NCBI RefSeq assembly: GCF_038446955.1
Contig: NZ_CP151803.1
Span: forward strand, 6,076,001-6,140,000
Length of the DNA: 64,000 nucleotides
Reading direction: 5' to 3'
Origin: Pedobacter sp. FW305-3-2-15-E-R2A2
Lineage (GTDB): Bacteria > Bacteroidota > Bacteroidia > Sphingobacteriales > Sphingobacteriaceae
Position numbers and translations under genes: made by a program. This document shows, one piece after another, positions 881-56,529 of this stretch (within the stretch, counting starts at the first letter, position 1; each line of letters begins with the position of its first letter). The notes below the pieces were generated by a model. The model did not search any database, was not told the DNA's origin, and saw nothing but the letters and a program-made list of their open reading frames with translations.

Positions 881-926
881 TTTTCAATTTTCAAACGTTT
901 TGTTAAAACATTTGGAAAATTGAAAA
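881..926. promoter_or_regulatory. Long near-palindromic operator upstream of the TetR gene
   Basis: An AT-rich inverted repeat of about 46 bp. The outer arms TTTTCAATTTTC (881-892) and GAAAATTGAAAA (915-926) are perfectly complementary, and the inner arms (AACGTTTT / AAAACATTT) pair imperfectly around GTTA. It covers a possible -33 TTTG (911-914) and lies just upstream of a TATAGTTT -7-like element (933-940) and the tetR start at 953. The size and position suit a TetR-family autoregulatory operator. Binding itself is inferred. Confidence 0.55.
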
Positions 927-952: not shown

Positions 953-1555
953 ATGAGTAAAAAAGAACTGGTAAAGGAAAAGATAGGAAGATCAGCCATG
1001 CAGTGTTTTGCAAAGTTTGGTCTTGATAAAACTACCCTTGATGACATTGCCCAGGCCGTTGGCCTGAATAAAGCATCGTTATACTATTACTATAAGAATA
1101 AGGAAGACATATTTATCGAGGTGGCGCTCAAAGAAGGCGAAGATTTTATCAATTCCCTTCAGGAAACCACCTTGCTTAAAGAGGGAATAGAAAACAGGAC
1201 TGCATTTTATCTGGAGTCGAGGTTCAATTATTATAAAAACGTGCTCAATATGAACCGGGTGTCCGTAGATACCCTGAACAAGATTCTGCCTCGTTTTTTT
1301 GAATTGTACAATGCACTGATGAAAAGGGAGAAAATCTTCTTAACACAGCTGCTGGAAAAAGCGGCAAAGGAGGAAAACCTGATGATGACTGATCCGGAAA
1401 ATACGGCATCCGTGCTCATCAACCTTACAGATGCTTTAAAACATAGTGTAGAACAGCAGGCGATCCTGAAAGGGGAAACTGAAATTGATTACACACAAAG
1501 TCTTCAGGACATTAAATTTTTGGTGTCACTGATCTTTACAGGAATAAGAAAATAG
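953..1555 (+). CDS. TetR/AcrR family transcriptional regulator
   Basis: A 200-residue regulator. The N-terminal TetR DNA-binding domain is plain: a helix-turn-helix around residues 25-48 (TTLDDIAQAVGLNKASLYYYY, then KNKEDIF), followed by an all-helical ligand-binding domain. It is preceded by an AAGGAAGGG ribosome-binding-like stretch and by a 46-bp inverted repeat that probably serves as its operator. The TonB receptor, beta-helix lipoprotein and diheme cytochrome genes follow on the same strand, 87 bp further on, so it is the natural candidate to control them. The inducer is not evident from sequence. Confidence 0.9.
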   Translation: MSKKELVKEKIGRSAMQCFAKFGLDKTTLDDIAQAVGLNKASLYYYYKNKEDIFIEVALKEGEDFINSLQETTLLKEGIENRTAFYLESRFNYYKNVLNMNRVSVDTLNKILPRFFELYNALMKREKIFLTQLLEKAAKEENLMMTDPENTASVLINLTDALKHSVEQQAILKGETEIDYTQSLQDIKFLVSLIFTGIRK

Positions 1556-1642
1556 CGGTACTCTCGTAGTTTCATGACGGTTAAAGGGGTTTAAGCTATT
1601 TTATTATTTAAAATTTTGTTGCCAACCTAAACCAAACCAAAT

Positions 1643-4396
1643 ATGAACAAAGTCATGTTACTTAGCCTGATTCTTTATTTCTGTATGCCCGATTCCCTCA
1701 GGGCGCAAAATCTAATCAAAGGAAACATTAAGAACAACGCCACGCAGGAAGCTGCATACGCGGTCTCCGTAAAGGTAAAAAACGGGACAGAAGGCACTTA
1801 CTCTGATGACCGCGGCAGGTTTCAGTTGAAAACATCAAAGAAACTCCCGCTTACCCTGATCATTTCCTCCATCGGCTACGAATCTAAAGAAGTAGCGGTT
1901 CAAAGTTTTTCCGGCATCCTGGAAATCGGATTAGAACCCGCATCTGTACTTGGACAGGAAGTGGTCGTGTCTGCCAGCAGGACGGTACAAAAAAAGCTGG
2001 CCTCCCCCGTCACCATCGAACAGATCAGCAGTAAGGAGATCAGCAATTCGCCGCAGTTGAACTACATCGACATGATTCAGGGTTTAAAAGGCGTGGATGT
2101 GACGGTTTCCAGCATCGGTTTTACCAGTATCTCTACCAGGGGATTTAATACGAGTGGAAATACCAATTTCACGCAGATTGTAGACGGAATGGACAACCAG
2201 GCACCCGGGCTTAACTTCCCCCTCGGATCGGCCATCAGTTTAACACAACTTGATGTAGACAACATAGAAATGCTTTCCGGGGCCTCGTCGGCACTTTACG
2301 GCTCCAGAGGTTTGAATGGAACGATGATCATGTCTGGCAAAGATCCTTTTAAATATCAGGGTTTAAGCGTACTCGTCACTCAGGGGGCGAACCACCTGAA
2401 CAATAAGAACCACAATGATCCCGTAGCCCCTTCCGCTTATTACGACTGGACCATTCGTTACGCGAAACAGATCAATGAGAAATTCGCCTTTAAAATCAAT
2501 TCCCAATATACCCAGGCAAAAGACTGGGTGGCGAATGATGCCAGCAATAAAAACGGAACAGGAACCGCCCTTACTGATCCGAATTACAATGGAGCAAACT
2601 ATTATGGAGGCGCAACTTCTGTTGACATCTCGCCATTTCTACAGGCAGCACTCGCCGGAGATCCCGCACTGGCCCCAATTATCGATCCATTGCTCACTAA
2701 GTCGAATTATGTAGCAAGGACCGGTTACCCTGAATTTGGTTACCTGGACAATAAAGCAAGGCTCTTCAAAGTCAATGCAGAGCTCCGCTATAAGATCAAT
2801 CCAAAACTTGAAGCCCTGATCTCCGGAACTTATGGAACAGGAAATATTGTGTATACCAATGATACACGATACCAGCTGAAAGGCTTTAAAGTAGGTCAGT
2901 ACAGAATGGAACTTAAAAGCGACAAATGGTTTATCCGCGGTTATACCACTCAGGAGAATTCCGGACGGACCATCGTTGCCGGACCTACAGCACAGTACAT
3001 CAATGAGTCCTGGAAAACAAGTTATGACGGCAATACCGGAGGATGGTATCCGGAATATACTTACGGCCTGATCAATGCGCTGGCGGGAGGATCAGGACTA
3101 AACGAAGCACATTTAGCTGCCCGTGCATTTGCTGATCAGGGACGGGCAGAACTGGGAAGTCCTCTCTTTAACCGATTGAAGGACAGCATCACCAACACCC
3201 CTATTTCTGATGGAGGCACGCTCTTCCTCGACCGCAGTAAGTTATACAATGCAGAAGCGCAGTATAATTTTACCGATCTGGTGAAGTTCATGAGTGTCAT
3301 TGCAGGGGTAAACTGGCGACTGTACAGTCTGAACAGTAAAAACACGCTTTTTCCGGATAAGAACAAACCCATCAATGTAAAAGAATACAGTGCCTATATC
3401 CAGTTGGCGAAGAAAGTTGCAGACGATAAACTCAGCATCAGCACTTCCTTCCGCTATGATAAAAACACGTTGTTCTCCTCACCGAAAGTCACGTCGAGGG
3501 CTTCATTGGTTTTTGAAGCAGTAAAAGAAAACTTCATCAGGTTCTCTTATCAGAATGCTTATAGTTTCCCTTCTAATATCCAGGCTTTACAAAACACATT
3601 GAGCGGTTACAACAGCTTTTCTTCCGGCGGTTCTTCCCTCCTGCTCAATGACAATTATCAGTTTAACAAATTTCCACCTTATACCCTGGAAAGTGTGACC
3701 AAATATCAGCAGACAGGTGATGCCGGTGTGCTTCAGAAATTCCAGTACAATGACATCAAACCTCAGTCGGTCAATGCATTTGAACTCGGTTATGCCGCCC
3801 TGATCGGAAAACGGGTGATCTTCGATGTGCTGGGTTATTTCTCTACCTGGAAAAACTTTATTGGCTATGCAAATGTTGCCAATACACCAGGAACGAATGA
3901 TGTGACTGCCTTTAAAGACCATAGCACCTATATCCAATACAACATTGCCTTCAATGGCGGGCAAATGGTAAATACCTATGGCTATGCCGCCAGTGTCAGC
4001 GTAGACCTCGGCCATAATTTCCTGACCAAGGTCAATTACTTTTCAGACCATATCAGGAATAAAAATAATTCTCAGATCAATAACTTCAATACCCCGAGTT
4101 ACCACATCAATATGGAATTTGGAAACAGTGGTTTCGGTAAAAAACAAGAATGGTCATTCAGTACCAGCCTACGCTATAAACCGGGTTATTTCTATGTCGT
4201 TTCCGGTGGCCTTGCTGCTGGACAGGTACCAAGTTCAGCAGTGATCGATGCACAGATCAGCTACAAGCTCATCAAAGCACGCTCGGGAATCAGACTGGGT
4301 GCCACCAATATCACCAACCAATACTATACCACAGGGGTTGCCAATCCGAATATCGGGGCAGTCTACTATGTGACTTATGCTTACAATATCTTTTAA
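1643..4396 (+). CDS. TonB-dependent outer-membrane receptor
   Basis: A 917-residue receptor. A signal peptide ends near SLRAQ (residue 22). A CarboxypepD_reg-like beta-sandwich domain (about 25-105) is followed by a plug domain (about 115-235, with VVVSASRT and the SGASSALYGSRGLNG segment). The rest is a 22-strand-type barrel ending in an aromatic C-terminus (AYNIF) as expected for BAM substrates. No STN domain and no SusD partner are present, so it is not a SusC of the glycan type. It starts a run with the beta-helix lipoprotein (25 bp on) and the diheme cytochrome, suggesting that it brings in the substrate or cofactor those proteins handle. The substrate is unknown. Confidence 0.9.
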   Translation: MNKVMLLSLILYFCMPDSLRAQNLIKGNIKNNATQEAAYAVSVKVKNGTEGTYSDDRGRFQLKTSKKLPLTLIISSIGYESKEVAVQSFSGILEIGLEPASVLGQEVVVSASRTVQKKLASPVTIEQISSKEISNSPQLNYIDMIQGLKGVDVTVSSIGFTSISTRGFNTSGNTNFTQIVDGMDNQAPGLNFPLGSAISLTQLDVDNIEMLSGASSALYGSRGLNGTMIMSGKDPFKYQGLSVLVTQGANHLNNKNHNDPVAPSAYYDWTIRYAKQINEKFAFKINSQYTQAKDWVANDASNKNGTGTALTDPNYNGANYYGGATSVDISPFLQAALAGDPALAPIIDPLLTKSNYVARTGYPEFGYLDNKARLFKVNAELRYKINPKLEALISGTYGTGNIVYTNDTRYQLKGFKVGQYRMELKSDKWFIRGYTTQENSGRTIVAGPTAQYINESWKTSYDGNTGGWYPEYTYGLINALAGGSGLNEAHLAARAFADQGRAELGSPLFNRLKDSITNTPISDGGTLFLDRSKLYNAEAQYNFTDLVKFMSVIAGVNWRLYSLNSKNTLFPDKNKPINVKEYSAYIQLAKKVADDKLSISTSFRYDKNTLFSSPKVTSRASLVFEAVKENFIRFSYQNAYSFPSNIQALQNTLSGYNSFSSGGSSLLLNDNYQFNKFPPYTLESVTKYQQTGDAGVLQKFQYNDIKPQSVNAFELGYAALIGKRVIFDVLGYFSTWKNFIGYANVANTPGTNDVTAFKDHSTYIQYNIAFNGGQMVNTYGYAASVSVDLGHNFLTKVNYFSDHIRNKNNSQINNFNTPSYHINMEFGNSGFGKKQEWSFSTSLRYKPGYFYVVSGGLAAGQVPSSAVIDAQISYKLIKARSGIRLGATNITNQYYTTGVANPNIGAVYYVTYAYNIF

Positions 4397-4421
4397 TCAA
4401 ACCCACAAAAACTAACCAAAT

Positions 4422-5705
4422 ATGAAACATTCCATCACTACAACACTCCTCTTACTACTGATTACCGGTATTTTGGGCTCCTGTAACAGCAAATCAGATC
4501 AAAAAGATACTTACACCACTATCCTAAGTTTTAAACCCGGTGAAGAAGCTAAAATTGCGGAAGCCTTTCTCTCTTTAAAAGACAGCACGAGTATCCTGCT
4601 GAAAGCAGGGAACTATAAATTTGACAACCTCAGCATTGCCCAGGTCAACCATATCCTGATTCAGGGGGAAGGCCATGACAAGACCGTTCTTGATTTTTCC
4701 GGACAGACGCAGGGTGGCGAAGGCATCCGGGTAACTGATGTGAAAGGCTTTACCATTGATGCCATGACCATCCGGGACTCCAAAGGAGATTTGTTAAAGA
4801 TCAATAAAAGCAGCAACGTAACCGTAACCAATCTGCATGCGGTATGGAGCAAGGCTGATTCTACCAGTGGCGGTTATGCCATTTATCCGGTATTGTGCAA
4901 AAATGTGCTCATTGAAAACTGCTATACAGAGGGTTCTTCGGATGCCGGAATTTATGTTGGCCAGACCGACAGCGCCATTGTCAGGAAATGTAAAGCTGCT
5001 AAAAATGTGGCTGGCTGTGAAATTGAAAATACTTCCAATGCAGAGGTCTACGACAATGAGTTTTACAACAATACCGCAGGTTTCTTGATTTTTGACCTTC
5101 CCGATCTTTCAAAAAGAGGGGGTCATGTGAAGGTTTATAATAATAACATCCACGACAACAACTTTAGAAATTTCGCTAAAGCAGGTAGTTTCGGTACCAC
5201 CTGGGGTGTTGGAAATGCCTCGCCGGGAAGCGGGATCATCATCCTCGCAGCCTCAGACATTGAGATCTATAACAATAAAATTATCAACAACAACACTTCT
5301 TCCATCACCATTGCTTCCGGCTTTGCCGTAGATGAGAAAGCTGGCGAGAAGATCAATGCCAATTATTCGCCTATTCCGAAAAACATCAGGATTCACGACA
5401 ACACCATAGAGATGGGACCTGCTTTTCCTAAGCCTGCTTATGAACACCGGATCGGGCAATTGTTGGTGGCAACAGAAGCGCAGCTGAACAGACTGGATCC
5501 TGCCCGCAAAAACAAACGGATTCCATGGATCATGTATGATGGAATTACCAGCAATATCCTGACCAAAGGAACCGCAGCAAATCCGGATTCTATTTGTATC
5601 AAACAGCCCGGCGACAATGTCTTCGTGAATGCCGATTTCCTCAACATTTCAAAACCTGAAAACTGGAAACCCAATACAAATATTAGCCCATACCAATGCA
5701 AATAA
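4422..5705 (+). CDS. Parallel beta-helix repeat lipoprotein
   Basis: A 427-residue exported lipoprotein (leader ending GILGS-Cys21). From about residue 60 it shows right-handed parallel beta-helix spacing: repeated short strands with Asn-rich turns, e.g. VEIYNNKI-type, KVYNNNIHDNN and IRIHDNTIEM segments. It resembles the beta-helix family (TIGR03805, from memory) that is recurrently paired with a family of diheme cytochromes (TIGR03806, SO2930-type), and that partner follows here with overlapping ends. The function of the pair is, to my knowledge, not established. It could bind or cleave a polymer, as related folds do, but no catalytic residues can be assigned with confidence. Confidence 0.85.
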   Translation: MKHSITTTLLLLLITGILGSCNSKSDQKDTYTTILSFKPGEEAKIAEAFLSLKDSTSILLKAGNYKFDNLSIAQVNHILIQGEGHDKTVLDFSGQTQGGEGIRVTDVKGFTIDAMTIRDSKGDLLKINKSSNVTVTNLHAVWSKADSTSGGYAIYPVLCKNVLIENCYTEGSSDAGIYVGQTDSAIVRKCKAAKNVAGCEIENTSNAEVYDNEFYNNTAGFLIFDLPDLSKRGGHVKVYNNNIHDNNFRNFAKAGSFGTTWGVGNASPGSGIIILAASDIEIYNNKIINNNTSSITIASGFAVDEKAGEKINANYSPIPKNIRIHDNTIEMGPAFPKPAYEHRIGQLLVATEAQLNRLDPARKNKRIPWIMYDGITSNILTKGTAANPDSICIKQPGDNVFVNADFLNISKPENWKPNTNISPYQCK

Positions 5706-5707
5706 AG

Positions 5708-6778
5708 ATGCGTAAAACTTATCTTTTTAGCACCTTGCTCCTCTTTAGCACTACATTTTCGGTGTTGATGGAGCAGGGCTGCAAAAATAAAACCAAGCCT
5801 GTAAATCAAGGCGATTTTCAATTTAAAGAAAAGCTTTCTGATTATGGATTTTTCAAAGGAAAACTCAAAGACCTGAATCCTGCAGATGGGATTTTTAACT
5901 ATGAATTGAGTACCCCTTTGTTTACCGACTATGCCATTAAAGACCGGTTTATTGTTTTACCGGCTGGCAAGGCGATAAAATATACCGAAAATGGGGCTTT
6001 AGACTTTCCTGATTCCAGCATCATCATTAAAAATTTCGCATATACCAATGTCGAACATCAAAAAGTGATGATTGAAACCCGCTTGCTCGTAAAAGATCCA
6101 AAGGATAAAAAATGGAAAGTGATGAACTACCTCTGGAACAAGGAGCAAACGGAGGCCCTGAAACACATTACCGGGGCCAGGGTTCCGATTACCTTACTTG
6201 ATGAGGAAGGAAAAAAATATTTTACCAATTATCAGGTTCCCAATACCAACGACTGTAAAAGGTGTCACATCAAGGATGGGATCCTGACCCCGATCGGGCC
6301 TAAAGCAAGAAACCTCAACTTTACCCTTAGCGGACAAACGGTAAATCAATTGAGCCAATGGGCAGCCAAAGCCAGGATTACTGGATTGCCTGAGCTGAGC
6401 AAAGTGCATCAGCTCCCGGTCTGGACGGACAAAAAACACTATAGTCTGGAACAAAGGGCCAGGGCATATATGGATATAAATTGTGCACATTGTCATACTA
6501 AAGGTGGCGATGCCTACAATACCGGATTATTTTTAGATTATCAGGAAACAAACCCAGATCATTTGGGGATGAGAAAAGCACCGGTTTCTGCGGGTGGAGG
6601 CGCCGGAGGATTAGATTATGACATCGTTCCGGGGCTACCTGAACAATCCATACTCTTGTACAGAATGAACAGTACAGAACCGGGAACGGCCATGCCGGAA
6701 CTGGCACGAACCATTATTCATAAAGAGGGTGTGGAACTGATCAGAGAATGGATTAAAAGTTTACCAAAACAGAAATAG
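5708..6778 (+). CDS. Diheme c-type cytochrome, SO2930-like
   Basis: An exported protein of about 356 residues. Two heme-attachment motifs are visible: CKRCH about midway (residue ~183) and CAHCH (~259), consistent with covalent attachment of two hemes in the periplasm. The middle region (YELSTPLFTDYAIKDRF, LVKDPKDKKWKVMNYLWN) resembles the conserved family found next to beta-helix lipoproteins. The ATG at 5708 gives a proper signal peptide (MRKTYLF...). An in-frame ATG at 5696 overlaps the end of the upstream gene and is the alternative. The leader ends in MEQGC, a poor lipobox, so lipidation is uncertain. A strong hairpin follows the gene. Confidence 0.85.
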   Translation: MRKTYLFSTLLLFSTTFSVLMEQGCKNKTKPVNQGDFQFKEKLSDYGFFKGKLKDLNPADGIFNYELSTPLFTDYAIKDRFIVLPAGKAIKYTENGALDFPDSSIIIKNFAYTNVEHQKVMIETRLLVKDPKDKKWKVMNYLWNKEQTEALKHITGARVPITLLDEEGKKYFTNYQVPNTNDCKRCHIKDGILTPIGPKARNLNFTLSGQTVNQLSQWAAKARITGLPELSKVHQLPVWTDKKHYSLEQRARAYMDINCAHCHTKGGDAYNTGLFLDYQETNPDHLGMRKAPVSAGGGAGGLDYDIVPGLPEQSILLYRMNSTEPGTAMPELARTIIHKEGVELIREWIKSLPKQK

Positions 6779-6795: not shown

Positions 6796-6850
6796 AGCAG
6801 GATTTATGAATATCATATTATTCTAATGCCAGATTCATAAATCCTGCTTT
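6796..6850. terminator. Hairpin terminator between convergent genes
   Basis: A perfect 16-bp stem (6796-6811 with 6833-6848, AGCAGGATTTATGAAT and its complement) encloses a 21-nt loop. It sits between the cytochrome gene and the convergent serine hydrolase gene and could stop both. Confidence 0.7.
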
Positions 6851-6872: not shown

Positions 6873-7988
6873 TTAATTGCCAAGCAAAGTGCCTATATTT
6901 TTGTTAAAAACGATTCCCTTATCACAATTGGTAAAAAACACGTAACCATTTTTATTCGCTTTATTGATCTTGAACCCGGATTGAGCGTCTCCGTTATTTC
7001 CGCCATGTTCATATATTACCCCATAACTTACAGGTCGGATTGCAATTCCAAGCCCCCATGCCGTATCTCCATTGACCAGATAATGTGGCGTACTTTTATC
7101 GAGCTGTACCTGTTCTCTGAACAGCTCATCCCCACTCTTTTTTGACAGCCCCTTACCCCTCATCAGTGCAATCAAAAAGGTCGAATAATCTACGGCCTCT
7201 GTATGTAATCCTCCTGCAGGTTCAAACCAGGTGGAATCCTGCTCCGGAAAGGCAATTGGCCAGGGTTTGCCGGTCGGTTTTCCGCCGGCATGCCCTTTCA
7301 CCCTATGTTTTGTGATGTAGTCATTTCCACTAAACCAGGAGTTTTTGAGCTGAAGCGGCTTAGCTGCCTCTGATTGAAAATACGGATCCAGCGTCTGTAA
7401 AGTCAAGTGATTTAAATGCGCAATAACTCTGGCAAGATAAGAATACCCTTCACCTGAGTAGGCAAATTGCGTTCCCGGAGTAAACTTGATATATAATTCA
7501 CCGTATTTATAACGGTTTTCATCACGCTTATCGAAGTAACGCCAGTTTGGGAAGCCAGTGGTATGAGACAAGACCATTCGTGCCGTGATCAGCTTGTAGC
7601 ATTCATCTTTGGCAATATCCGGATAAGGCAAATACCTGTACAAAGGAGTATCCAGGTTCAGCACTTTCTGATCAACCAACTTCAATACGAAATAGCTGAA
7701 CAGGGGCTTTGACAAGGACGCCGCTTCAAAAAGGGAATTCGCATCCAGCTTTTTCTTAGTCACGATATCTGAAACTCCAAGGGAGCGGCGGTAAACCACT
7801 TTTCCATTGTTGATCAGCGCAAACGATAAACCAGGGAGCCCCAGAGAATCCATCTGTTTTTTAATAAATTCGTCTAATTGTTCTACACTCAGCTTACTTC
7901 CTTTGAGGGTTTGTAATTGCGCAGTGCTTTTAAAACTAAGGAACAGCAGGATGATCAATACACCTACAGGAAGGTTGATTTTACTCAT
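6873..7988 (-). CDS. Secreted serine hydrolase, beta-lactamase class C / PBP4* type
   Basis: A 371-residue protein with a signal peptide (about residues 1-23, ending KSTAQ). The class C beta-lactamase/esterase fold is shown by Ser91-Leu-Ser-Lys94 (SxxK), a Tyr-Ser-Gly (YxN-like) in FAYSGEGYSYL, and the HGG triad-like motif in YEHGGNNGD near the C-terminus. The family includes D,D-peptidases, esterases and D-aminopeptidases, and true beta-lactamase activity cannot be inferred from motifs. It appears monocistronic. The closely spaced flanking genes point the other way or are separated by terminators. Confidence 0.88.
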   Translation of the reverse strand: MSKINLPVGVLIILLFLSFKSTAQLQTLKGSKLSVEQLDEFIKKQMDSLGLPGLSFALINNGKVVYRRSLGVSDIVTKKKLDANSLFEAASLSKPLFSYFVLKLVDQKVLNLDTPLYRYLPYPDIAKDECYKLITARMVLSHTTGFPNWRYFDKRDENRYKYGELYIKFTPGTQFAYSGEGYSYLARVIAHLNHLTLQTLDPYFQSEAAKPLQLKNSWFSGNDYITKHRVKGHAGGKPTGKPWPIAFPEQDSTWFEPAGGLHTEAVDYSTFLIALMRGKGLSKKSGDELFREQVQLDKSTPHYLVNGDTAWGLGIAIRPVSYGVIYEHGGNNGDAQSGFKINKANKNGYVFFTNCDKGIVFNKNIGTLLGN

Positions 7989-25154: not shown

Positions 25155-26468
25155 TTACACGATCTGGTTTAAGATCAATACCCCTATTAAGCCAATCACC
25201 GCTACCAGCGTTTCCATGATAGACCAGGACCGGATCGTATCTTTAATTCCGAGGTTAAAATACTCTTTGAACATCCAGAATCCAGGGTCATTGACATGAG
25301 AAAACATTAAACTTCCCGCACCGATGGAAAGTACCATCAGCTCCGGATTTACGTTCGAGTTGATCATTAGCGGCGCAATAATTCCGGCAGCAGTTAAGCC
25401 CGCAACAGTTGCAGAACCCAGACAAACGCGGATCACCGCAGCAATCAGCCAGCCCAGGAATAAAGGTTCGATAGACAAACCTGCCAGGACATCCCCGATT
25501 TCTTTACTCACCCCACTATCCGAAAGCACCTGTTTTAAAGCACCTGATCCACCAATAATGAGCAGGATCATGGCAATATCTTTGACCGCATCGCCATAGA
25601 TGGACATCACTTCCTTCATGCTCTTTCCCATCTTTATCCCAAGGGTGAAAGTGGTCAGACATAAAGTAAGAAACATCACAATGGAAGGCTCAGCTAAGAA
25701 ACCGGCAAAGCCCGTTACCGCAGGGTTGTCTTTAAACAGCAAGACACAGACCGTCGTCAATGCCATTACAATTACCGGCAACAGCGCCGAGATGAAACTA
25801 TTCCAGGTACCCGGCAATTTCTCTTCAGGTAAATCATCAGACTGAAAAGTTTTAAGCGGTACGGCAACAATATTTTTTAATGTTTTTGAATAAACAGGCC
25901 CTGCGATAATGATCGCTGGAATAGCGAGCATGATACCGTAAAACATGGTGAGTCCCATATTGGCATGGAACTGTAATACTAAAGCAGCAGGTGAAGGATG
26001 TGGCGGCAGGAAACCATGTGTAACCGATAAAGCAGCCAGCATTGGAAGCCCCAGGTATACTGCAGGTAATTTGTATTTGTAGACCACCGAAAAAATAAGC
26101 GGCACCATGAGTACAAAACCAACATTATAGAATAAAGGAATCCCGATGATAAAGCCAGTAGTCATTAATCCCCATTGAATGTATTTACGTCCAAAGATCT
26201 TCATCATTACCGCAGCGATTTTCTGTGCAGCTCCACTTGCAGCAACAAGCTTGCCCAGCATGGCTCCAAATACGATCACAATAATCAAGGAACCCAGGAT
26301 GTCCCCTACTCCTTTTTGTACAGATTTAGTAATGCCCGTTAAGGGAACACCCAATGATAAACCTGCAAGGATAGACACAAAAAGAAAAGCAATAAAGGCA
26401 TTGATCTTGCCCCAGGTGGTCAGCAAAACAAGCAACAGAATGCAACCGATAACGATAAGTACAGTCAT
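25155..26468 (-). CDS. Gluconate:H+ symporter family permease (GntP)
   Basis: 437 residues with about 12-14 hydrophobic segments and GntP family hallmarks: GDILGSLIIVIVFGAMLGKLVAASGAAQKIA, then HGFLPPHPSPAAL in the middle, and IGAGSLMFSHVNDPGFWMFKEYF near the C-terminus. The family imports gluconate and related aldonates; some members take D-serine or other C3-C6 acids. It begins 6 bp after the upstream GH20 gene ends, so the two are almost certainly co-transcribed. The local context (hexosaminidases, KDG kinase) suggests import of amino-aldonic acids. Confidence 0.92.
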   Translation of the reverse strand: MTVLIVIGCILLLVLLTTWGKINAFIAFLFVSILAGLSLGVPLTGITKSVQKGVGDILGSLIIVIVFGAMLGKLVAASGAAQKIAAVMMKIFGRKYIQWGLMTTGFIIGIPLFYNVGFVLMVPLIFSVVYKYKLPAVYLGLPMLAALSVTHGFLPPHPSPAALVLQFHANMGLTMFYGIMLAIPAIIIAGPVYSKTLKNIVAVPLKTFQSDDLPEEKLPGTWNSFISALLPVIVMALTTVCVLLFKDNPAVTGFAGFLAEPSIVMFLTLCLTTFTLGIKMGKSMKEVMSIYGDAVKDIAMILLIIGGSGALKQVLSDSGVSKEIGDVLAGLSIEPLFLGWLIAAVIRVCLGSATVAGLTAAGIIAPLMINSNVNPELMVLSIGAGSLMFSHVNDPGFWMFKEYFNLGIKDTIRSWSIMETLVAVIGLIGVLILNQIV

Positions 26469-26474
26469 GGATTT

Positions 26475-28754
26475 TTAGTTTATAATGATTTCATCTGCCA
26501 TCAGCCAGGCCTTTTCTCCTTCTCCATATCCGCCGACAGGTACTCTGCCGATATTTTCTCCAATTATTCTCAGGTATTGAACTTTTACCAAAGGAAACTT
26601 TGCACGGACTTTATTGATGCCATTAAGATCGAAATTTCCTCCGGTATAAACTTCTTTAAATTCCTTTCCATCAACAGACACCAGAAAACTCAGTTTCTTC
26701 GGTGCCCACATCCTTTGCCAGGGGTAATGAAGCACATTGATACCAATTTGAGAAACCGGTGTTAAAGCACCTAAATCGATAAGGGCATCCAGGTTCTCCC
26801 CACTAAAGCCCAACCATTGTGAATCGTTAAAACGATGGTGTCCTTCCATTCCATTGAGCAGCAGGCCAGCTGGAAAATTGTATTTACCTGCAGGAGCATG
26901 AGCCAGGCTGATCTTTTTCTGAATTCCGGAGTGATGCAGGAAGGCCTGATTAAAAGTCCTTCCTGAACGTTTATTTCCAACAAAGAGCCCGGCGTTCAAG
27001 GTCATTGAACGGTTCAATAAAACTGGCCCCTGATACCGTTTACTTTTCATATTTGGAGCCGAGCCATCCAGGGTATATCTGATTTGCGCTTTCGGCAAAT
27101 TTGTTTTTAAGGTCAAAAGAGGATTTCCATTGGCTCCAGATTTCACTTCTGAAGTAATCTCCTCAAAATAAGGATAATAATTAACCTTCATCCGGTTCAT
27201 GAAATCCCTATGGTCCCTCAATTTCTTCAGAAACCAAGGGTAATTTTTCCCTTTTTTGTCAGACCAGGCGATTTCCGACAAGGCCAATGCACGGGGAAAT
27301 ACCATATATTCCAGGTGTTTCTCCTCCTTCATGTATTCCGTCCAGATGCCACCCTGAACGCCTTTGATGTAAGCGGCCTGCTCAGGGCTTAAAGAATCCG
27401 GTACAGGTTCATAACTATAGACCTTCGATAAAGGGGTGTAATTTCCTGCAGCAATGGGCTCATTTTTATCCAGCGACTGATAATAGTCGAAATACAGCAT
27501 ATTCTCCGGGGTCATGATGACTTCATACTTTTCTTTTGCAGCAACAATTCCGCTCTGCTCTCCCCTCCAGTTCATAATCGTGGCATTTTTAGAAACCCCA
27601 CCTTCCAGTACCTCATCCCAGCCTACAGCCTTTCTGTTTTTACTGTTCAGGTATTTCTCTATCCTTTTCATGAAATAGCCCTGAAGTTCGTGCTCGTCTT
27701 TAAGTCCGTTTTCTTTGATCTTTTGCTGGCATTTGGCGCAGTGTTTCCATTTCAGCTTCGGACATTCATCTCCGCCAATATGGACGTAAGCATAAGGAAA
27801 CAAAGTGACCACCTCATCCAGTACGTCTTCCATAAACTGATAAACTTCCTCATTACCGGCACAGAAAACATCATCAAATACCCCCCAGAACTGAGCGGTT
27901 TTGTAAGGACCTCCCGTACAACCCAATTGAGGATAGGCCGCTAGCGCCGCTAAAGCATGTCCGGGCATTTCAATCTCCGGAAGTATATTGACATATTTCG
28001 AAGTCGCATAACGCACTACTTCACGGATCTGGTCCTGTGTATAATAACCTCCATATTTCTGACCGTCAAAGGTATGAGGCGCTTCTTTTTTATGACCGAT
28101 GATCGTGCCATTCCTCCAGGCAGATACCGACTGGAGCTTAGGGTATTTTTTAATTTCTATCCGCCAGCCCTGGTCTTCAGTAAGGTGCCAATGAAAAATA
28201 TTGAACTTATAGACCGACAGCAAATCGATAAACTTTTTAAGAAAAGCAACGGAATACATATGTCTGCCCACATCCAGGTGCATACCGCGATAATTAAAGC
28301 GCGGATAATCCCTGATTTCCCCTTTTTCTATATGTAATGTATTTTTCGCTACGGGCGACCATAATTGCATTAAAGATTGGATGCCATAAAATACACCCGC
28401 CTGGTCATGCCCCTTGATCAGAATCTGATCACCTTCCACCAACAAATGATAGCCTTCCTTTTCTTTAACCGCTACTGAATCCAGCTTTAAGATGATCTGA
28501 TTTGCGCGGGATTTGGCATTTACAGCAAGCAGAACCCCGGTATAAGAGCGGATGGCTTCATTCAGCAATGCTCCGCTGGCCTTTAGTTCATCAGGATAAG
28601 TGATCGTTGTAGCAGCATAGATATTGATGCTGCCCTTGCTTTTTTTGAGGTAAACGGGTTCGGGAATGACGGCGAACGATGCTTGCTGAGCATGCAAAGC
28701 AGAACCTATAAACAGAAAGGTAATCAGTAAAAACAATCGGACGGTTTTATTCAT
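26475..28754 (-). CDS. GH20 beta-N-acetylhexosaminidase with C-terminal discoidin-type domain
   Basis: 759 residues from the ATG at 28754, which gives a clean signal peptide (MNKTVRLFLLITFLFIGSALHAQ region, cut near residue 22). An N-terminal GH20b alpha+beta domain (about 28-150) precedes the catalytic barrel (about 153-500). The Asp329-Glu330 pair in HIGGDECPKLKW polarises the acetamido group and acts as the acid. A chitobiase-like segment (LRYTLDGSAP-type, about 565) and an F5/8 C-like domain (about 620-759) follow. It removes terminal GlcNAc or GalNAc in the periplasm or at the surface. It is co-transcribed with gntP. Confidence 0.94.
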   Translation of the reverse strand: MNKTVRLFLLITFLFIGSALHAQQASFAVIPEPVYLKKSKGSINIYAATTITYPDELKASGALLNEAIRSYTGVLLAVNAKSRANQIILKLDSVAVKEKEGYHLLVEGDQILIKGHDQAGVFYGIQSLMQLWSPVAKNTLHIEKGEIRDYPRFNYRGMHLDVGRHMYSVAFLKKFIDLLSVYKFNIFHWHLTEDQGWRIEIKKYPKLQSVSAWRNGTIIGHKKEAPHTFDGQKYGGYYTQDQIREVVRYATSKYVNILPEIEMPGHALAALAAYPQLGCTGGPYKTAQFWGVFDDVFCAGNEEVYQFMEDVLDEVVTLFPYAYVHIGGDECPKLKWKHCAKCQQKIKENGLKDEHELQGYFMKRIEKYLNSKNRKAVGWDEVLEGGVSKNATIMNWRGEQSGIVAAKEKYEVIMTPENMLYFDYYQSLDKNEPIAAGNYTPLSKVYSYEPVPDSLSPEQAAYIKGVQGGIWTEYMKEEKHLEYMVFPRALALSEIAWSDKKGKNYPWFLKKLRDHRDFMNRMKVNYYPYFEEITSEVKSGANGNPLLTLKTNLPKAQIRYTLDGSAPNMKSKRYQGPVLLNRSMTLNAGLFVGNKRSGRTFNQAFLHHSGIQKKISLAHAPAGKYNFPAGLLLNGMEGHHRFNDSQWLGFSGENLDALIDLGALTPVSQIGINVLHYPWQRMWAPKKLSFLVSVDGKEFKEVYTGGNFDLNGINKVRAKFPLVKVQYLRIIGENIGRVPVGGYGEGEKAWLMADEIIIN

Positions 28755-28786
28755 GGCATTCCGGAAGATCATACAGCTTTGGTTTG

Positions 28787-28815
28787 TTTGCATATTTTTT
28801 GCAATAAATTGCATA
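28787..28815. promoter_or_regulatory. TTGCA repeat cluster, candidate operator
   Basis: TTTGCATA (28787-28794) is followed by TTGCAATAAATTGCATA (28799-28815), containing the palindrome TGCAATAAATTGCA. It lies at the expected transcript start of the minus-strand GH20-gntP operon, just downstream of its TATGTTTG -7 box (28826-28819). A related TTGCATA/TATGCAA palindrome precedes the KDG-kinase operon. The DeoR protein encoded nearby is the likely binder (inference). Confidence 0.5.
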
Positions 28816-28818
28816 TTT

Positions 28819-28826
28819 CAAACATA
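28819..28826 (-). promoter_or_regulatory. -7 element of the GH20-gntP operon
   Basis: The minus strand reads TATGTTTG, an exact TAnnTTTG match. No good TTTG was found at the -33 distance, which may indicate a regulated promoter. Confidence 0.45.
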
Positions 28827-28884
28827 AGGATTAAAATATTAATTTTCATTGCATGACTAAAATTATTAACAACAAGTTATTTCC

Positions 28885-28917
28885 TGTTGTAAATTAATTA
28901 TAATAAAACTACCTTAG
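28885..28917 (+). promoter_or_regulatory. Possible promoter of the second GH20 gene
   Basis: TGTTG (28885-28889), 20 nt, TACCTTAG (28910-28917). One mismatch in each element relative to TTTG/TAnnTTTG. It is 19 bp before the ATG at 28937. Confidence 0.35.
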
Positions 28918-28936
28918 GCTACTTTAATATGTAAAC

Positions 28937-31534
28937 ATGAGACGATTACTCTTTCAATTACCAATGCTCTTATTGGGACTAATTTCTACTGCACAAGTAA
29001 AAAAAGACGCCATAAATGCAAAAAACATTGCAATTAATTGGCAAATAATAGAAAATAGTTATGCTGATGGTGGACAATTCCTGTCCAGTTTGAATGTTCA
29101 AAACAATGGCCCTTTGGCATTATCTAACAAAAACTGGAAGCTGTATTTCAACTTTGCCAGGAGGATTGTTCCGGGAACAACGACAGGAAATGTAGAAATT
29201 GTACATGTTAACGGAGACTTATACTATATCCGTCCGACAGATAAATTCAAGCCTATTCATAATGGGGCATCGGCTACGACTGAATTTGCCTCCAAAGATT
29301 GGGCAGTGAATGCCACGGATGCGCCGGAAGGATTTTACCTGATCTATGATGACGCACCGAAACAGGCAATCCCTATCAGGAATGTGAAGGCCATTCCTTC
29401 TACGCGCGCGGCACAATTTGCCAGGAATAAGCAGGACCGTGTTCCTTCCATCACTCCTCAAATCATTTATGAGCAAAATAAAAACAGCATAGACCTTCCT
29501 GAGAAAGATTTGCAAAAGATCTTCCCCAGTCCGGCGCAATACGAAGAGAAAGCGGGAGAATTCATCCTGGACCAGGGTGTAAAGTTGAGTGCTGACCCGG
29601 CTTTTACATCAGAAAGCACTTTCCTTCGGGAAAGATTAACCCGTGTGCTAAGCACAGGAAAGGGAACTCAGACCGGAAAGACCATTCAGCTAAAACTGGA
29701 TAAATCGTTAGGAGCGGAAGCTTATCAACTGGAAATCAACAGCAAACAGATCCGGATTACAGCATCAGAGAAAGCAGGTATTTTTTACGGCATTCAATCT
29801 TTACTCAGTACTTTTCCTTTGCAAAAAAAGGGACAGAAAGTTGCGGTTATTAAATTACAGAATGCTGTAGTAACTGACCAGCCACGCTTTCCTTTCCGCG
29901 GACTTATGATTGATGTTGCGAGAAATTTCCAAACAAAAGAGGAGATCTTAAAAGTACTCGACCTGATGGGGATGTACAAATTAAACGTACTTCATTTTCA
30001 CTTAAATGACGATGAAGGCTGGAGATTGGAAATTCAGGATTTACCGGAGTTAACTGCGGTGGGTTCCAGAAGGGGACATTTTTCGGATACGACGCTTAGT
30101 CACCTGCCTCCTTCTTTTGGTTCGGGTCCTTTCCTAAACGAACATCATGGAACAGGTCATTACAGCAAAGCTGATTTCATTGAAATCTTAAAATATGCCA
30201 ATGCACGTCATATCCGGGTGATTCCGGAGATAGAAGCGCCGGGACATGCCAGGGCAGCAGTCCGTTCCATGCATGCACGTTACAACAGGCTGATGAAAGA
30301 AGGCAAGCCTGAAGAAGCAAAGCGTTACCTGTTACATGACCTCAACGACCGCTCTACTTACCGTTCTGTACAAAACTGGAACGACAATGTGATGGATGTA
30401 TCTATTCCTTCCACGTATACCTTTATAGAAAAGATCAGCGACGAGATCATCGCCATGTATAAAACCGCAGGCGCACCTTTACAAACCATACATTTTGGAG
30501 GAGATGAAGTACCAGATGGCGCATGGGAAGGTTCTCCAAACAGCCTGAAATTCGTTAAAGAACATCCGGAACTAAAAGATGTAAATGGCCTTTGGGCTTA
30601 CTTCTACAGCAATATAGACCGCATCTTGAAAAGCAGAAACTTATACCTTTCAGGATGGGAGGAAGTGGGCATGCAGCCAGTTGTTGCAGATGGAAAGAAG
30701 TCCTATGTGATCAATCCTGCATTGGGCGATAAAAACATCCACCTGAATGTCTGGAACAACATTATAGGCTGGGGTGCAGAAGACCTGGCTTACAGACTGG
30801 CCAATACGGGATACAAAGTGATTCTTGGCGGGGTAAGCAATCTATACTTCGACATGGCTTATCAGAAATCATTTGATGAACCAGGCTATTACTGGGGCGA
30901 GTATGCGGATATCGATAAGGCTTTTAATTTCATTCCTTTCAATTCCTTTCTCAATTCCAATATGGATAAGTTTGGCAATACCTTAAAACCTGGTTTTTAT
31001 GATACTAAAGAACGGTTAACCGCAAAAGGGAAAGCAAATATTGTAGGGCTGCAGGGATTATTATGGAGCGAAACGATTAAAGGAGGCAAAGATCTGGAGT
31101 ACATGATCATGCCGAAACTTTTGGGCCTTGCAGAAAGGGCATGGGCAACAGATCCGGAATGGGCCAATGAACCGGACTCCATCAAAAGAAAAGGAATGTA
31201 TGATAAAGCCTGGGCCAGATTTGCCAACAGGCTTGGAAAAAAAGAACTGCCGAGGATAGACGCTGCATTTGGAGAACTGAATTACAGGTTACCCCCTGCC
31301 GGTGCGGTTGTAAAAGACGGACAGGTACATTTGAACAATCAGTTCCCCGGGATTACCATCCGTTATACCACCGATCAAACGATACCAACAGCAAAGAGCC
31401 CGGTATATACCAAACCGATTACCACCAAAGGACTCATCAGGTTCCGTACATTCGACAGCGAGGGACGCGGAGGAAGGTCTACTTCCATCGTAAACGAAGT
31501 GGAATGGAACGTGACTCCTAAGGAGTTACCATAA
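28937..31534 (+). CDS. GH20 beta-N-acetylhexosaminidase with N-terminal CHB_HEX-like domain
   Basis: 865 residues with a signal peptide (ends LISTAQ, about 20). An N-terminal immunoglobulin-like CHB_HEX chitobiase domain (about 30-165, INWQIIENSYADGG... NWKLYFNFARRI) is followed by a GH20b domain (about 175-315) and the catalytic barrel. The catalytic pair is Asp523-Glu524 in HFGGDEVPDGAWEGSP. A chitobiase C-terminal domain (about 785-860, ITIRYTTDQTIPT) closes it. This is the true chitobiase architecture, distinct from the neighbouring GH20. It is divergent from the GH20-gntP operon and 59 bp upstream of the deoR gene. Confidence 0.94.
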   Translation: MRRLLFQLPMLLLGLISTAQVKKDAINAKNIAINWQIIENSYADGGQFLSSLNVQNNGPLALSNKNWKLYFNFARRIVPGTTTGNVEIVHVNGDLYYIRPTDKFKPIHNGASATTEFASKDWAVNATDAPEGFYLIYDDAPKQAIPIRNVKAIPSTRAAQFARNKQDRVPSITPQIIYEQNKNSIDLPEKDLQKIFPSPAQYEEKAGEFILDQGVKLSADPAFTSESTFLRERLTRVLSTGKGTQTGKTIQLKLDKSLGAEAYQLEINSKQIRITASEKAGIFYGIQSLLSTFPLQKKGQKVAVIKLQNAVVTDQPRFPFRGLMIDVARNFQTKEEILKVLDLMGMYKLNVLHFHLNDDEGWRLEIQDLPELTAVGSRRGHFSDTTLSHLPPSFGSGPFLNEHHGTGHYSKADFIEILKYANARHIRVIPEIEAPGHARAAVRSMHARYNRLMKEGKPEEAKRYLLHDLNDRSTYRSVQNWNDNVMDVSIPSTYTFIEKISDEIIAMYKTAGAPLQTIHFGGDEVPDGAWEGSPNSLKFVKEHPELKDVNGLWAYFYSNIDRILKSRNLYLSGWEEVGMQPVVADGKKSYVINPALGDKNIHLNVWNNIIGWGAEDLAYRLANTGYKVILGGVSNLYFDMAYQKSFDEPGYYWGEYADIDKAFNFIPFNSFLNSNMDKFGNTLKPGFYDTKERLTAKGKANIVGLQGLLWSETIKGGKDLEYMIMPKLLGLAERAWATDPEWANEPDSIKRKGMYDKAWARFANRLGKKELPRIDAAFGELNYRLPPAGAVVKDGQVHLNNQFPGITIRYTTDQTIPTAKSPVYTKPITTKGLIRFRTFDSEGRGGRSTSIVNEVEWNVTPKELP

Positions 31535-54627: not shown

Positions 54628-56529
54628 CTAGTAAGCTCTCTGGTTGTTTCCTTCTTTCCAGTTTACAAAAGCCTTGATGACAACTTTGTTTCCACCTGGG
54701 GTTGGGTAGTTTCCGGAGAAATACCAATCGCCGGTATGATCCGGACAAGCCACATGTAAGTTATCTAAAGTCTGGTAAATTACCTCTACTTCTGCGTTAA
54801 TGTTTGCAGGAGTAATGATTTTGGTAATCTGAGCAGAGATCTCTTCCTGAGTAAAAGGTCTGTAAATGTCTTTCACGTGATTTACAATCTGTTCTTTAGG
54901 CAACAACAGGGAAGCTTTACATTTCTGGTAAACTTCTTCAATGATGTGTTCCATTCCGCGTTCCTTTAACAATTGGATGGCCGCTTCAAAAGCAACAAAC
55001 TGTCCCATTTTAGACATATCAATACCATAGCAATCCGGGTAACGGATCTGAGGAGCAGAAGAAACAATAATGATCTTCTTAGGATGCAACCTGTCAATGA
55101 TCTTAATGATACTTTGCTTTAAAGTTGTTCCCCTTACGATAGAATCATCTATCGCCACTAAGGTATCTGTATTGTTCTTGATGATACCATAAGTAGTGTC
55201 ATAAACATGCGCTACCATATCCTGCCTGTCGGCATCCTGGGTAATGAATGTTCTTAATTTCACATCTTTAATAGCCAGCTTTTCTACTCTTGGGTTCATA
55301 GAAAGCAATTCATCCAGCTCCTGATCGTTCAGTTGTTCTTTACGGTTCAGTAAGGTATCTTTTTGAACCCCTCTGATATAGCTGTGCAATCCTTCCACCA
55401 TTCCGTAGAAAGATACTTCAGCAGTATTCGGGATAAAAGAGAATACGGTATTTTTAAGGTCTGCACTGACTGCTTTCAGGATCTGATCGCACAATAAGGC
55501 ACCTAACTGTTTTCTTTCTTTATAAATATCAGCATCACTTCCTCTGGAGAAGTAAATGCGTTCAAATGAGCAAGCTCTTTTTTCCTGAGGATCTCTGAAT
55601 ACTTCCTGAGTAACTTTACCGCTTTTCTTAACGATTAAAGCATGTCCCGGTTCGATTTCTTTAACATCTTTGAATGGAATGTTGAAGGCCGTCTGAATTG
55701 CTGGTCTTTCTGAAGCAGCAACTACGATTTCATCATCAGCATAGTAAAATGCAGGACGTATTCCCGAAGGATCACGAAGTACAAAAGCATCACCATTACC
55801 AACGATTCCGGAGATTGCATATCCACCATCCCAGTTTTTCGCTGAGCGACGTAAGATCTTGGCGATGTCTAAACCTTCAGAGATTTTATGGGTAATTTCT
55901 ACGTTATCCAGTCCTTCTTTCTTGTAAGCATCAAAAAGTTCCTGATTTTCATCGTCAAGGAAATGACCAATTTTTTCAAGGACAGTAACCGTATCTGCTT
56001 TTTCTTTTGGATGTTGTCCAAGCTCATACAATTGCTCCAGCAGCTCTTCCACATTCGTCATGTTGAAGTTACCTGCAATCACCAGGTTACGGGTCATCCA
56101 GTTGTTCTGGCGCAAAAATGGGTGGCAGTTTTCAATACTGTTCTGACCATGGGTACCATATCGAAGGTGACCTAATAAAACTTCCCCGATAAAACTAACA
56201 TTGGATTTTAGCCATTCAGCATCCTGCATTAATTCAGGTGTTTCATTCTGGATGTCTACAAATTTGCTTTGTACATATCCAAAAATGTCTGCAACTGCAT
56301 TTTGTGCCATAGACCTGTACCTGCTGATGTAGCGGTGTCCTGGTTTAACATCAAGTTTAATGGTGGCAATACCGGCTCCATCCTGTCCGCGGTTGTGTTG
56401 CTTTTCCATCAAAAGATAAAGCTTATTCAGTCCCCAGAGTGCTGTACCGTATTTTTCCTGGTAGTATGAGAGAGGTTTTAAAAGACGGATAAAGGCTATT
56501 CCGCATTCATGCTTGATCGAGTCGCTCAT
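54628..56529 (-). CDS. purF: Amidophosphoribosyltransferase-type protein (long Bacteroidota form)
   Basis: 633 residues, longer than the usual 470-510. The glutaminase half has the nucleophilic Cys at residue 9 after a short propeptide (SDSIKHEC), RGQDGAG, GHLRYGTHGQ and the GNFN oxyanion loop. The synthase half has the PRPP-binding motif VAIDDSIVRGTTLKQSI. Extra segments occur near residues 60-110 and at the C-terminus. Expected to form phosphoribosylamine in purine synthesis. Whether this is the main PurF or a paralogue of it cannot be told. Confidence 0.88.
   Translation of the reverse strand: MSDSIKHECGIAFIRLLKPLSYYQEKYGTALWGLNKLYLLMEKQHNRGQDGAGIATIKLDVKPGHRYISRYRSMAQNAVADIFGYVQSKFVDIQNETPELMQDAEWLKSNVSFIGEVLLGHLRYGTHGQNSIENCHPFLRQNNWMTRNLVIAGNFNMTNVEELLEQLYELGQHPKEKADTVTVLEKIGHFLDDENQELFDAYKKEGLDNVEITHKISEGLDIAKILRRSAKNWDGGYAISGIVGNGDAFVLRDPSGIRPAFYYADDEIVVAASERPAIQTAFNIPFKDVKEIEPGHALIVKKSGKVTQEVFRDPQEKRACSFERIYFSRGSDADIYKERKQLGALLCDQILKAVSADLKNTVFSFIPNTAEVSFYGMVEGLHSYIRGVQKDTLLNRKEQLNDQELDELLSMNPRVEKLAIKDVKLRTFITQDADRQDMVAHVYDTTYGIIKNNTDTLVAIDDSIVRGTTLKQSIIKIIDRLHPKKIIIVSSAPQIRYPDCYGIDMSKMGQFVAFEAAIQLLKERGMEHIIEEVYQKCKASLLLPKEQIVNHVKDIYRPFTQEEISAQITKIITPANINAEVEVIYQTLDNLHVACPDHTGDWYFSGNYPTPGGNKVVIKAFVNWKEGNNQRAY

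Follow-up and report, generated by a model that had tools for sequence, protein, structure and literature searches.

Four genes that lie in one direction at 953-6778 of the window (the whole stretch of DNA analysed here, 64,000 nt, to which all coordinates refer) form a unit whose grouping is not chance: a regulator, a TonB receptor (TBDR), a beta-helix lipoprotein of the TIGR03805 family (BH) and a diheme cytochrome of the TIGR03806 family (CYT). We are fairly confident that the cytochrome is composite, residues 41-210 being a distant P460/c'-beta domain and the C-terminal part a cytochrome c domain with His/Met ligation. A tentative reading, to which we give a little less than even weight, is that the four genes constitute an inducible outer-membrane oxidation module.

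The open reading frames lie exactly where the earlier note had placed them, all on the forward strand. The first encodes a TetR-family regulator of 200 aa (953-1555, +; PF00440, TetR_N, E 3e-14) with orthologues in 21 loci, and the second a TBDR of 917 aa (1643-4396, +; CarbopepD_reg_2 and Plug) that consists of a CarboxypepD_reg-like domain, a plug and a barrel. BH follows with 427 aa and the lipobox ILGSC (4422-5705, +), and CYT, of the SO2930 family, with 360 aa (5696-6778, +). The two families had been named correctly in the earlier note, since both proteins score above the curated cut-offs (302.8 bits against 141.5 for TIGR03805 and 362.1 against 313.3 for TIGR03806). As the successive intergenic gaps are 87, 25 and -10 nt, the four genes are likely carried on a single transcript. 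Upstream, a canonical intrinsic terminator, a 15-pair hairpin followed by a T run (790-823, +), closes an ompA-like lipoprotein gene (239-757) and sets the operon apart from it. The strong terminator that had been claimed for the other end is only partly borne out: a stable hairpin is indeed present at 6796-6848 (+; -22.8 kcal/mol, z -5.2), between CYT and the next, convergent gene, but it has no T tract behind it. This convergent gene encodes a beta-lactamase-fold protein (6873-7988; PF00144), and PF00144 hydrolase genes also lie beside the unit or the pair in several unrelated genomes (in the fetched neighbourhoods, cited by L-number, L180 6676-7836, L291 4518-5882 and L293 11208-12395), which may be chance in so common a family. 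A role in esterase or lipid uptake was considered, as beta-lactamase-fold hydrolases, a lipase and FadL occur near some pairs, and was set aside as these neighbours are too inconsistent. Further along the window, two divergent GH20 beta-hexosaminidase genes stand back to back (26475-31534), the first adjoined by a GntP permease gene (25155-26468), and a protein of 633 aa (54628-56529) has no Pfam match at E 1e-8.

To judge the grouping we assembled 80 loci with close relatives of CYT, together with their 10 kb flanks, and added 40 Bacteroidota neighbourhoods from whole-genome draws as well as Pseudomonadota neighbourhoods. In this combined set BH and CYT occur together in 80 loci, a sample biased toward close relatives. 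The earlier note had made its grouping depend on how often the receptor and TetR adjoin the pair; when this co-occurrence was examined, a closely related TBDR was found directly upstream, at position -2 from CYT, in 53 of the 80, preceded by a gene for either a TetR or a membrane LytTR regulator. By locus, 33 have TBDR and LytTR, 19 TBDR and TetR, two TetR without TBDR (L082, L083), one TBDR alone and 25 the bare BH-CYT pair. Receptor genes are abundant in the window genome, with at least 150 TBDR plug matches or roughly one gene in 40 for a genome estimated at ~6,300 genes, yet the abundance is far from accounting for a receptor at one fixed position in 53 loci whose outer flanks differ, and the grouping is therefore not a matter of chance. 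The ompA-like gene is common only to the nearest Pedobacter (among the named relatives found, P. steynii comes nearest, its CYT being 96% identical), and the Chitinophagaceae keep the unit in unrelated surroundings. In Pedobacter panaciterrae O48 (NZ_LGEL01000011.1, L070/L071) the operon is present twice, at the mirror positions 51984-73048 and 198925-219989 of a contig of 271972 nt that resembles an inverted duplication and is possibly an assembly artefact.

When the regulators are mapped on a maximum-likelihood tree built from 53 CYT proteins, 3-4 changes are needed, compared with ~17 in shuffles, so that by this reconstruction the regulator has been swapped at least three to four times with the core retained. 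Together with the 53 loci, the tree argues that the receptor belongs to the unit within the clade and that the regulator is exchangeable. The proposal of a dedicated receptor and regulator thus stands for Sphingobacteriaceae and Chitinophagaceae, with the amendment that TetR can be replaced by the membrane LytTR protein; in other Bacteroidota and in Pseudomonadota, pairs with no receptor or with an unrelated one occur as well. In the phylum-wide Bacteroidota draw, BH adjoins a full-length CYT in 12 of 16 neighbourhoods, but a TBDR adjoins the pair in only 2-3 of the 16. Of the genomes sampled, 18 of 198 from Bacteroidota and 35 of 378 from Pseudomonadota have a TIGR03806 protein that passes the cut-off. 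In Winogradskyella and Psychroserpens (L121-L142) a solitary TIGR03806-like cytochrome, lacking BH, is found close to genes for lysyl-tRNA synthetase and zinc-protease-like proteins, a context conserved in many marine Flavobacteriaceae.

Upstream of tetR lies an inverted repeat of the form TTTTCAAAC-N13-rTTTGrAAA, reading TTTTCAAAC-N13-GTTTGAAAA in the window (888-918, with flanking arms spanning 881-926), which is a putative TetR site. Called at 14 or more of 18 positions matched, this dyad is present in all 21 TetR loci versus one of 33 LytTR loci, with a mean score in the TetR loci of 16.2 out of 18 as against 11.2 in shuffles; it is from this co-occurrence that we infer binding of TetR to 888-918. 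A search of the window genome at three or fewer mismatches returned no second operator, leaving 888-918 as the sole site. The dyad overlaps a promoter of Bacteroidota type (911-942, +), whose -33 TTTG falls in the right half-site and whose -7 element, TAGTTTTA, occupies 935-942; a TAnnTTT-type -7 element follows ~18-21 nt beyond the -33 TTTG in nearly all TetR loci, an arrangement that we take to match the Bacteroidota promoter consensus. The simplest reading of this layout would be autorepression by TetR of one operon. The LytTR regulator, as judged from its sequence, joins an N-terminal membrane region to a LytTR DNA-binding domain.

What CYT might do is best approached through its first half. 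The P460-like domain is encoded at 5816-6325 (+) and contains the heme-1 CXXCH motif (C187-H191, 6254-6268), and the second heme domain, at 6482-6694 (+), contains CXXCH at 6482-6496 (C263-H267) and an invariant Met333 (6692-6694), likely the axial ligand of heme 2. Searches of PDB sequences with CYT, BH and TBDR gave nothing useful, and Foldseek found no significant match in the PDB to the AlphaFold2 model of the window CYT (pLDDT 91.9). In VIA-align, among the matches listed, the best seven were all cytochrome P460 or c'-beta (Z 7.1-5.4, rmsd 3.3-4.6, 116-126 residues within 41-227 of the model), followed by a match at Z 3.6; the best Z of ~7 falls below the safe-match level of 8. Since such scores are not conclusive by themselves, we ran a sequence-profile comparison, in which CYT residues 40-215 matched a profile of 17 P460-family proteins collected from genomes with an hhalign Prob of 94 (score 50.5). 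The controls remained low: Prob 0.2 for the reversed P460 profile, at most 4 in 20 column shuffles, at most 0.3 for TetR, TBDR and BH, 9 when one CYT half was compared with the other and 0.1 for the CYT half against BH. The extended alignment pairs FPDSSIIIK of CYT with FPDGSVLAK of P460, as well as both CXXCH motifs, and places K112 of CYT (6029-6031, +) on the crosslinking lysine of P460 (the Lys70/78/106 position); that this is the crosslink residue can be told from the solved K106L variant 6w6n, which reads L there. K112 is present wherever the sequences have a letter at this position (166 of 166), E127-T128-R129 of the same domain in 172 of 172, both CXXCH motifs in all complete CYT sequences and Met333 wherever its position has a letter (169 of 169). 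At the position of the P460 distal carboxylate (Glu96/Asp102) CYT has R129 in the simple register, and the invariant E127 comes two residues earlier. Pfam PF16694 matches 12 of 40 CYT members weakly (best E 0.0042, all below cut-off), the window CYT not being among them.

It is possible that CYT, at the outer membrane, is no more than a wire or electron sink with two hemes, with BH as a scaffold or glycan anchor and a receptor whose cargo has nothing to do with redox chemistry. Shewanella SO_2930 is counted among the outer-membrane c-type cytochromes of an electron-transfer network (PMC4837345), and in several lineages CYT occurs alone, without BH or TBDR, as would befit such an accessory. However, the first half differs from ordinary cytochrome c domains, and a wire has no need of invariant pocket-type residues such as K112, E127, R129, W140 and W147, so that we hold this explanation to be rather unlikely; given the likeness of this half to a catalytic heme fold, CYT is probably more than a wire. 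A second possibility is that CYT oxidises hydroxylamine or binds NO as a means of detoxification, given that P460 oxidises hydroxylamine and c'-beta binds gases (PMC11928373). The P460/c'-beta-like domain with its lysine would fit this role, as would the flavohaemoglobin gene that adjoins a fused BH-CYT gene in L301, but a small, permeable substrate requires neither a TonB receptor nor a beta-helix partner, no recurring nitrogen-oxide gene is seen near the pair, and in the simple register the distal carboxylate of P460 is not aligned in CYT. Nitrogen-oxide handling is thus an unlikely explanation. A bolder extension of the oxidase reading is that TIGR03806 represents a large, unrecognised branch of P460, made of lysine-heme crosslinked oxidases with a built-in relay heme and BH as the substrate-binding subunit, acting on an organic substrate outside nitrogen metabolism; this is speculative, and we would not expect it to hold in full.

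The fold of BH was assigned on the model of a natural BH-CYT fusion from Halioglobus (L120), whose BH half contains a right-handed parallel beta-helix of the mannuronan C5-epimerase (AlgE) type, aligning with such epimerases at Z 33 over ~300 residues. Fusions of this kind, 800-1044 aa long, are found in Halioglobus and other Pseudomonadota, and their presence in several of these bacteria would argue that BH and CYT act as partners; the fused model reaches a pTM of 0.58, for which reason the BH/CYT interface was left out of the interpretation. One such fused gene (L301, 6798-14441) has the gene of a FadL-type long-chain fatty acid transporter on one side and that of the flavohaemoglobin on the other. 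By a crude test, a lipobox-like motif is present in most BH and only about half of the CYT sequences. Invariant polar residues run along the helix (D123, K126, W142, Y152, Y155, D174, Y178, Q181, N195, E200, E202 and N203), which suggests that BH keeps a ligand site.

Another possibility is glycan modification, with BH as a polysaccharide lyase or epimerase and CYT oxidising its product. The nearest folds are enzymes of this sort, as the L120 half matches RbmB, polygalacturonases and alginate lyases in addition to the epimerases (Z 33-30 for epimerases, RbmB and alginate lyases), and L178 has GH88 and 3-keto-disaccharide hydrolase genes near the pair; other loci, however, have no such neighbours, and neither SusCD nor consistent carbohydrate-active genes stand beside the pair, which makes this account quite unlikely. 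Metal delivery, in which a NosD-like BH would help the module to acquire or insert a metal such as copper, is very unlikely in our estimation. The NosD structure does align with the BH domain of L120 (Z 28.8), and in two Sphingobacteriaceae (L194 13911-17091, L201 12486-13400) the genes upstream of BH-CYT include those of a TBDR and of a heavy-metal-associated-domain protein, hinting at a metal link, but the fold match is generic, with epimerases and lyases scoring higher (Z 33), and no recurring NosFY transporter is seen near the pair. As to the receptor itself, its SusC signature (TIGR04057) scores 22.4 bits against a cut-off of 46.2, and no SusD lipoprotein lies beside it, the neighbour being BH.

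A neighbour that bears on the reading as an oxidation module is an aldehyde dehydrogenase (ALDH). It is encoded on the same strand in 12 of the 21 TetR loci, eleven times at a gap of 18-59 nt and once at 327 nt, and four further loci have it divergent from the LytTR gene. In the TetR operons it occupies two positions: in Chitinophagaceae it stands between TetR and TBDR (or BH), whereas in Sphingobacteriaceae it follows CYT. The two insertions differ in lineage (~38-42% versus 52-62% identity to the ALDH homologue of the window genome), so that they were probably recruited independently. The closest solved structures of the operon ALDH are class-3 and fatty aldehyde dehydrogenases, and the presence of a class-3 enzyme in the operon of many relatives would point to a substrate at the level of an alcohol, amine or aldehyde and of hydrophobic or aromatic type. 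The window operon is without ALDH, the nearest homologue lying 1.1 Mb away in the same genome. The ALDH genes of L075, L076 and L195 belong to a different family, are on the opposite strand, are ~25-30% identical to the homologue of the genome and are not counted among the 12. An FAD-dependent dehydrogenase (PRK12834) precedes tetR in three Sphingobacterium-type loci. On a Novosphingobium plasmid (NZ_CP039697.1), a BH-CYT pair with an unrelated TBDR in front of it lies among genes for aldehyde, alcohol and PQQ dehydrogenases; this TBDR is itself interrupted by an IS5 transposase gene (L239 6783-10575). In most other Bacteroidota and Pseudomonadota loci the pair has no fixed metabolic neighbour, which indicates that import and aldehyde oxidation are additions specific to the clade.

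The scheme that we propose builds on what the sequences provide, namely gene order, operator and promoter, families, fusion, conserved residues and ALDH linkage, and adds transport, binding, catalysis, substrate class and a lysine-heme crosslink by inference. TetR, seated on the only dyad, which covers the -33 element of the promoter of its own gene, would repress the whole operon until a ligand is bound. The receptor would then carry the substrate over the outer membrane with energy from TonB, and BH may hold or position this substrate, or a glycan, for its partner CYT. As a self-contained oxidoreductase, CYT would oxidise the substrate at heme 1, in a P460-like pocket with the invariant lysine and polar residues, and heme 2, with its predicted His/Met ligands, would pass the electrons on to the respiratory chain. 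In many relatives, the class-3 ALDH of the same operon could convert the product to a carboxylate.

TIGR03805 and TIGR03806 are curated, widespread families whose pairing is already annotated, and in the literature that could be searched we found no function for them, for SO2930 or for P460 fusions. New within that literature are the P460-like domain (absent also from the annotation searched), the unit of receptor and regulator with its operator, and the link to ALDH. The P460-like domain offers a first concrete chemical hypothesis for the two families, and the single operator and the ALDH linkage provide simple genetic handles. The arrangement described here resembles the TIGR03805/TIGR03806 pair in that both proteins exceed the curated cut-offs and adjoin each other, and differs from it in having its own receptor and a regulator whose putative operator is mapped. 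With SusC/SusD systems it shares a TBDR with an N-terminal CarboxypepD_reg-like domain and an adjoining surface-type lipoprotein, but SusD is missing, the SusC signature is below cut-off and a redox partner replaces the glycoside hydrolases. With P460/c'-beta proteins (PF16694) CYT has in common a CXXCH at the domain end, a lysine in an FPxGxxxxK strand and, as the model suggests at a Z below the safe level, the beta fold; unlike them, it has a second heme domain behind and BH as a partner, no carboxylate aligns at the distal position in the simple register and it does not reach the Pfam cut-off. A 2025 review of the P460/c'-beta superfamily makes no mention of diheme, SO2930 or Bacteroidota members, and if the crosslink is real, the P460 cofactor would reach beyond the described proteobacterial P460 proteins to Bacteroidota and to a new partner protein. 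Rubber oxidation by RoxA and Lcp combines a surface heme oxygenase, uptake of the aldehyde product, an aldehyde dehydrogenase and TetR-type control. By analogy, the unit would resemble this system in surface heme oxidation, uptake, ALDH and TetR-type control, but its heme domain is P460-like, whereas RoxA is of the MauG/CCP class.
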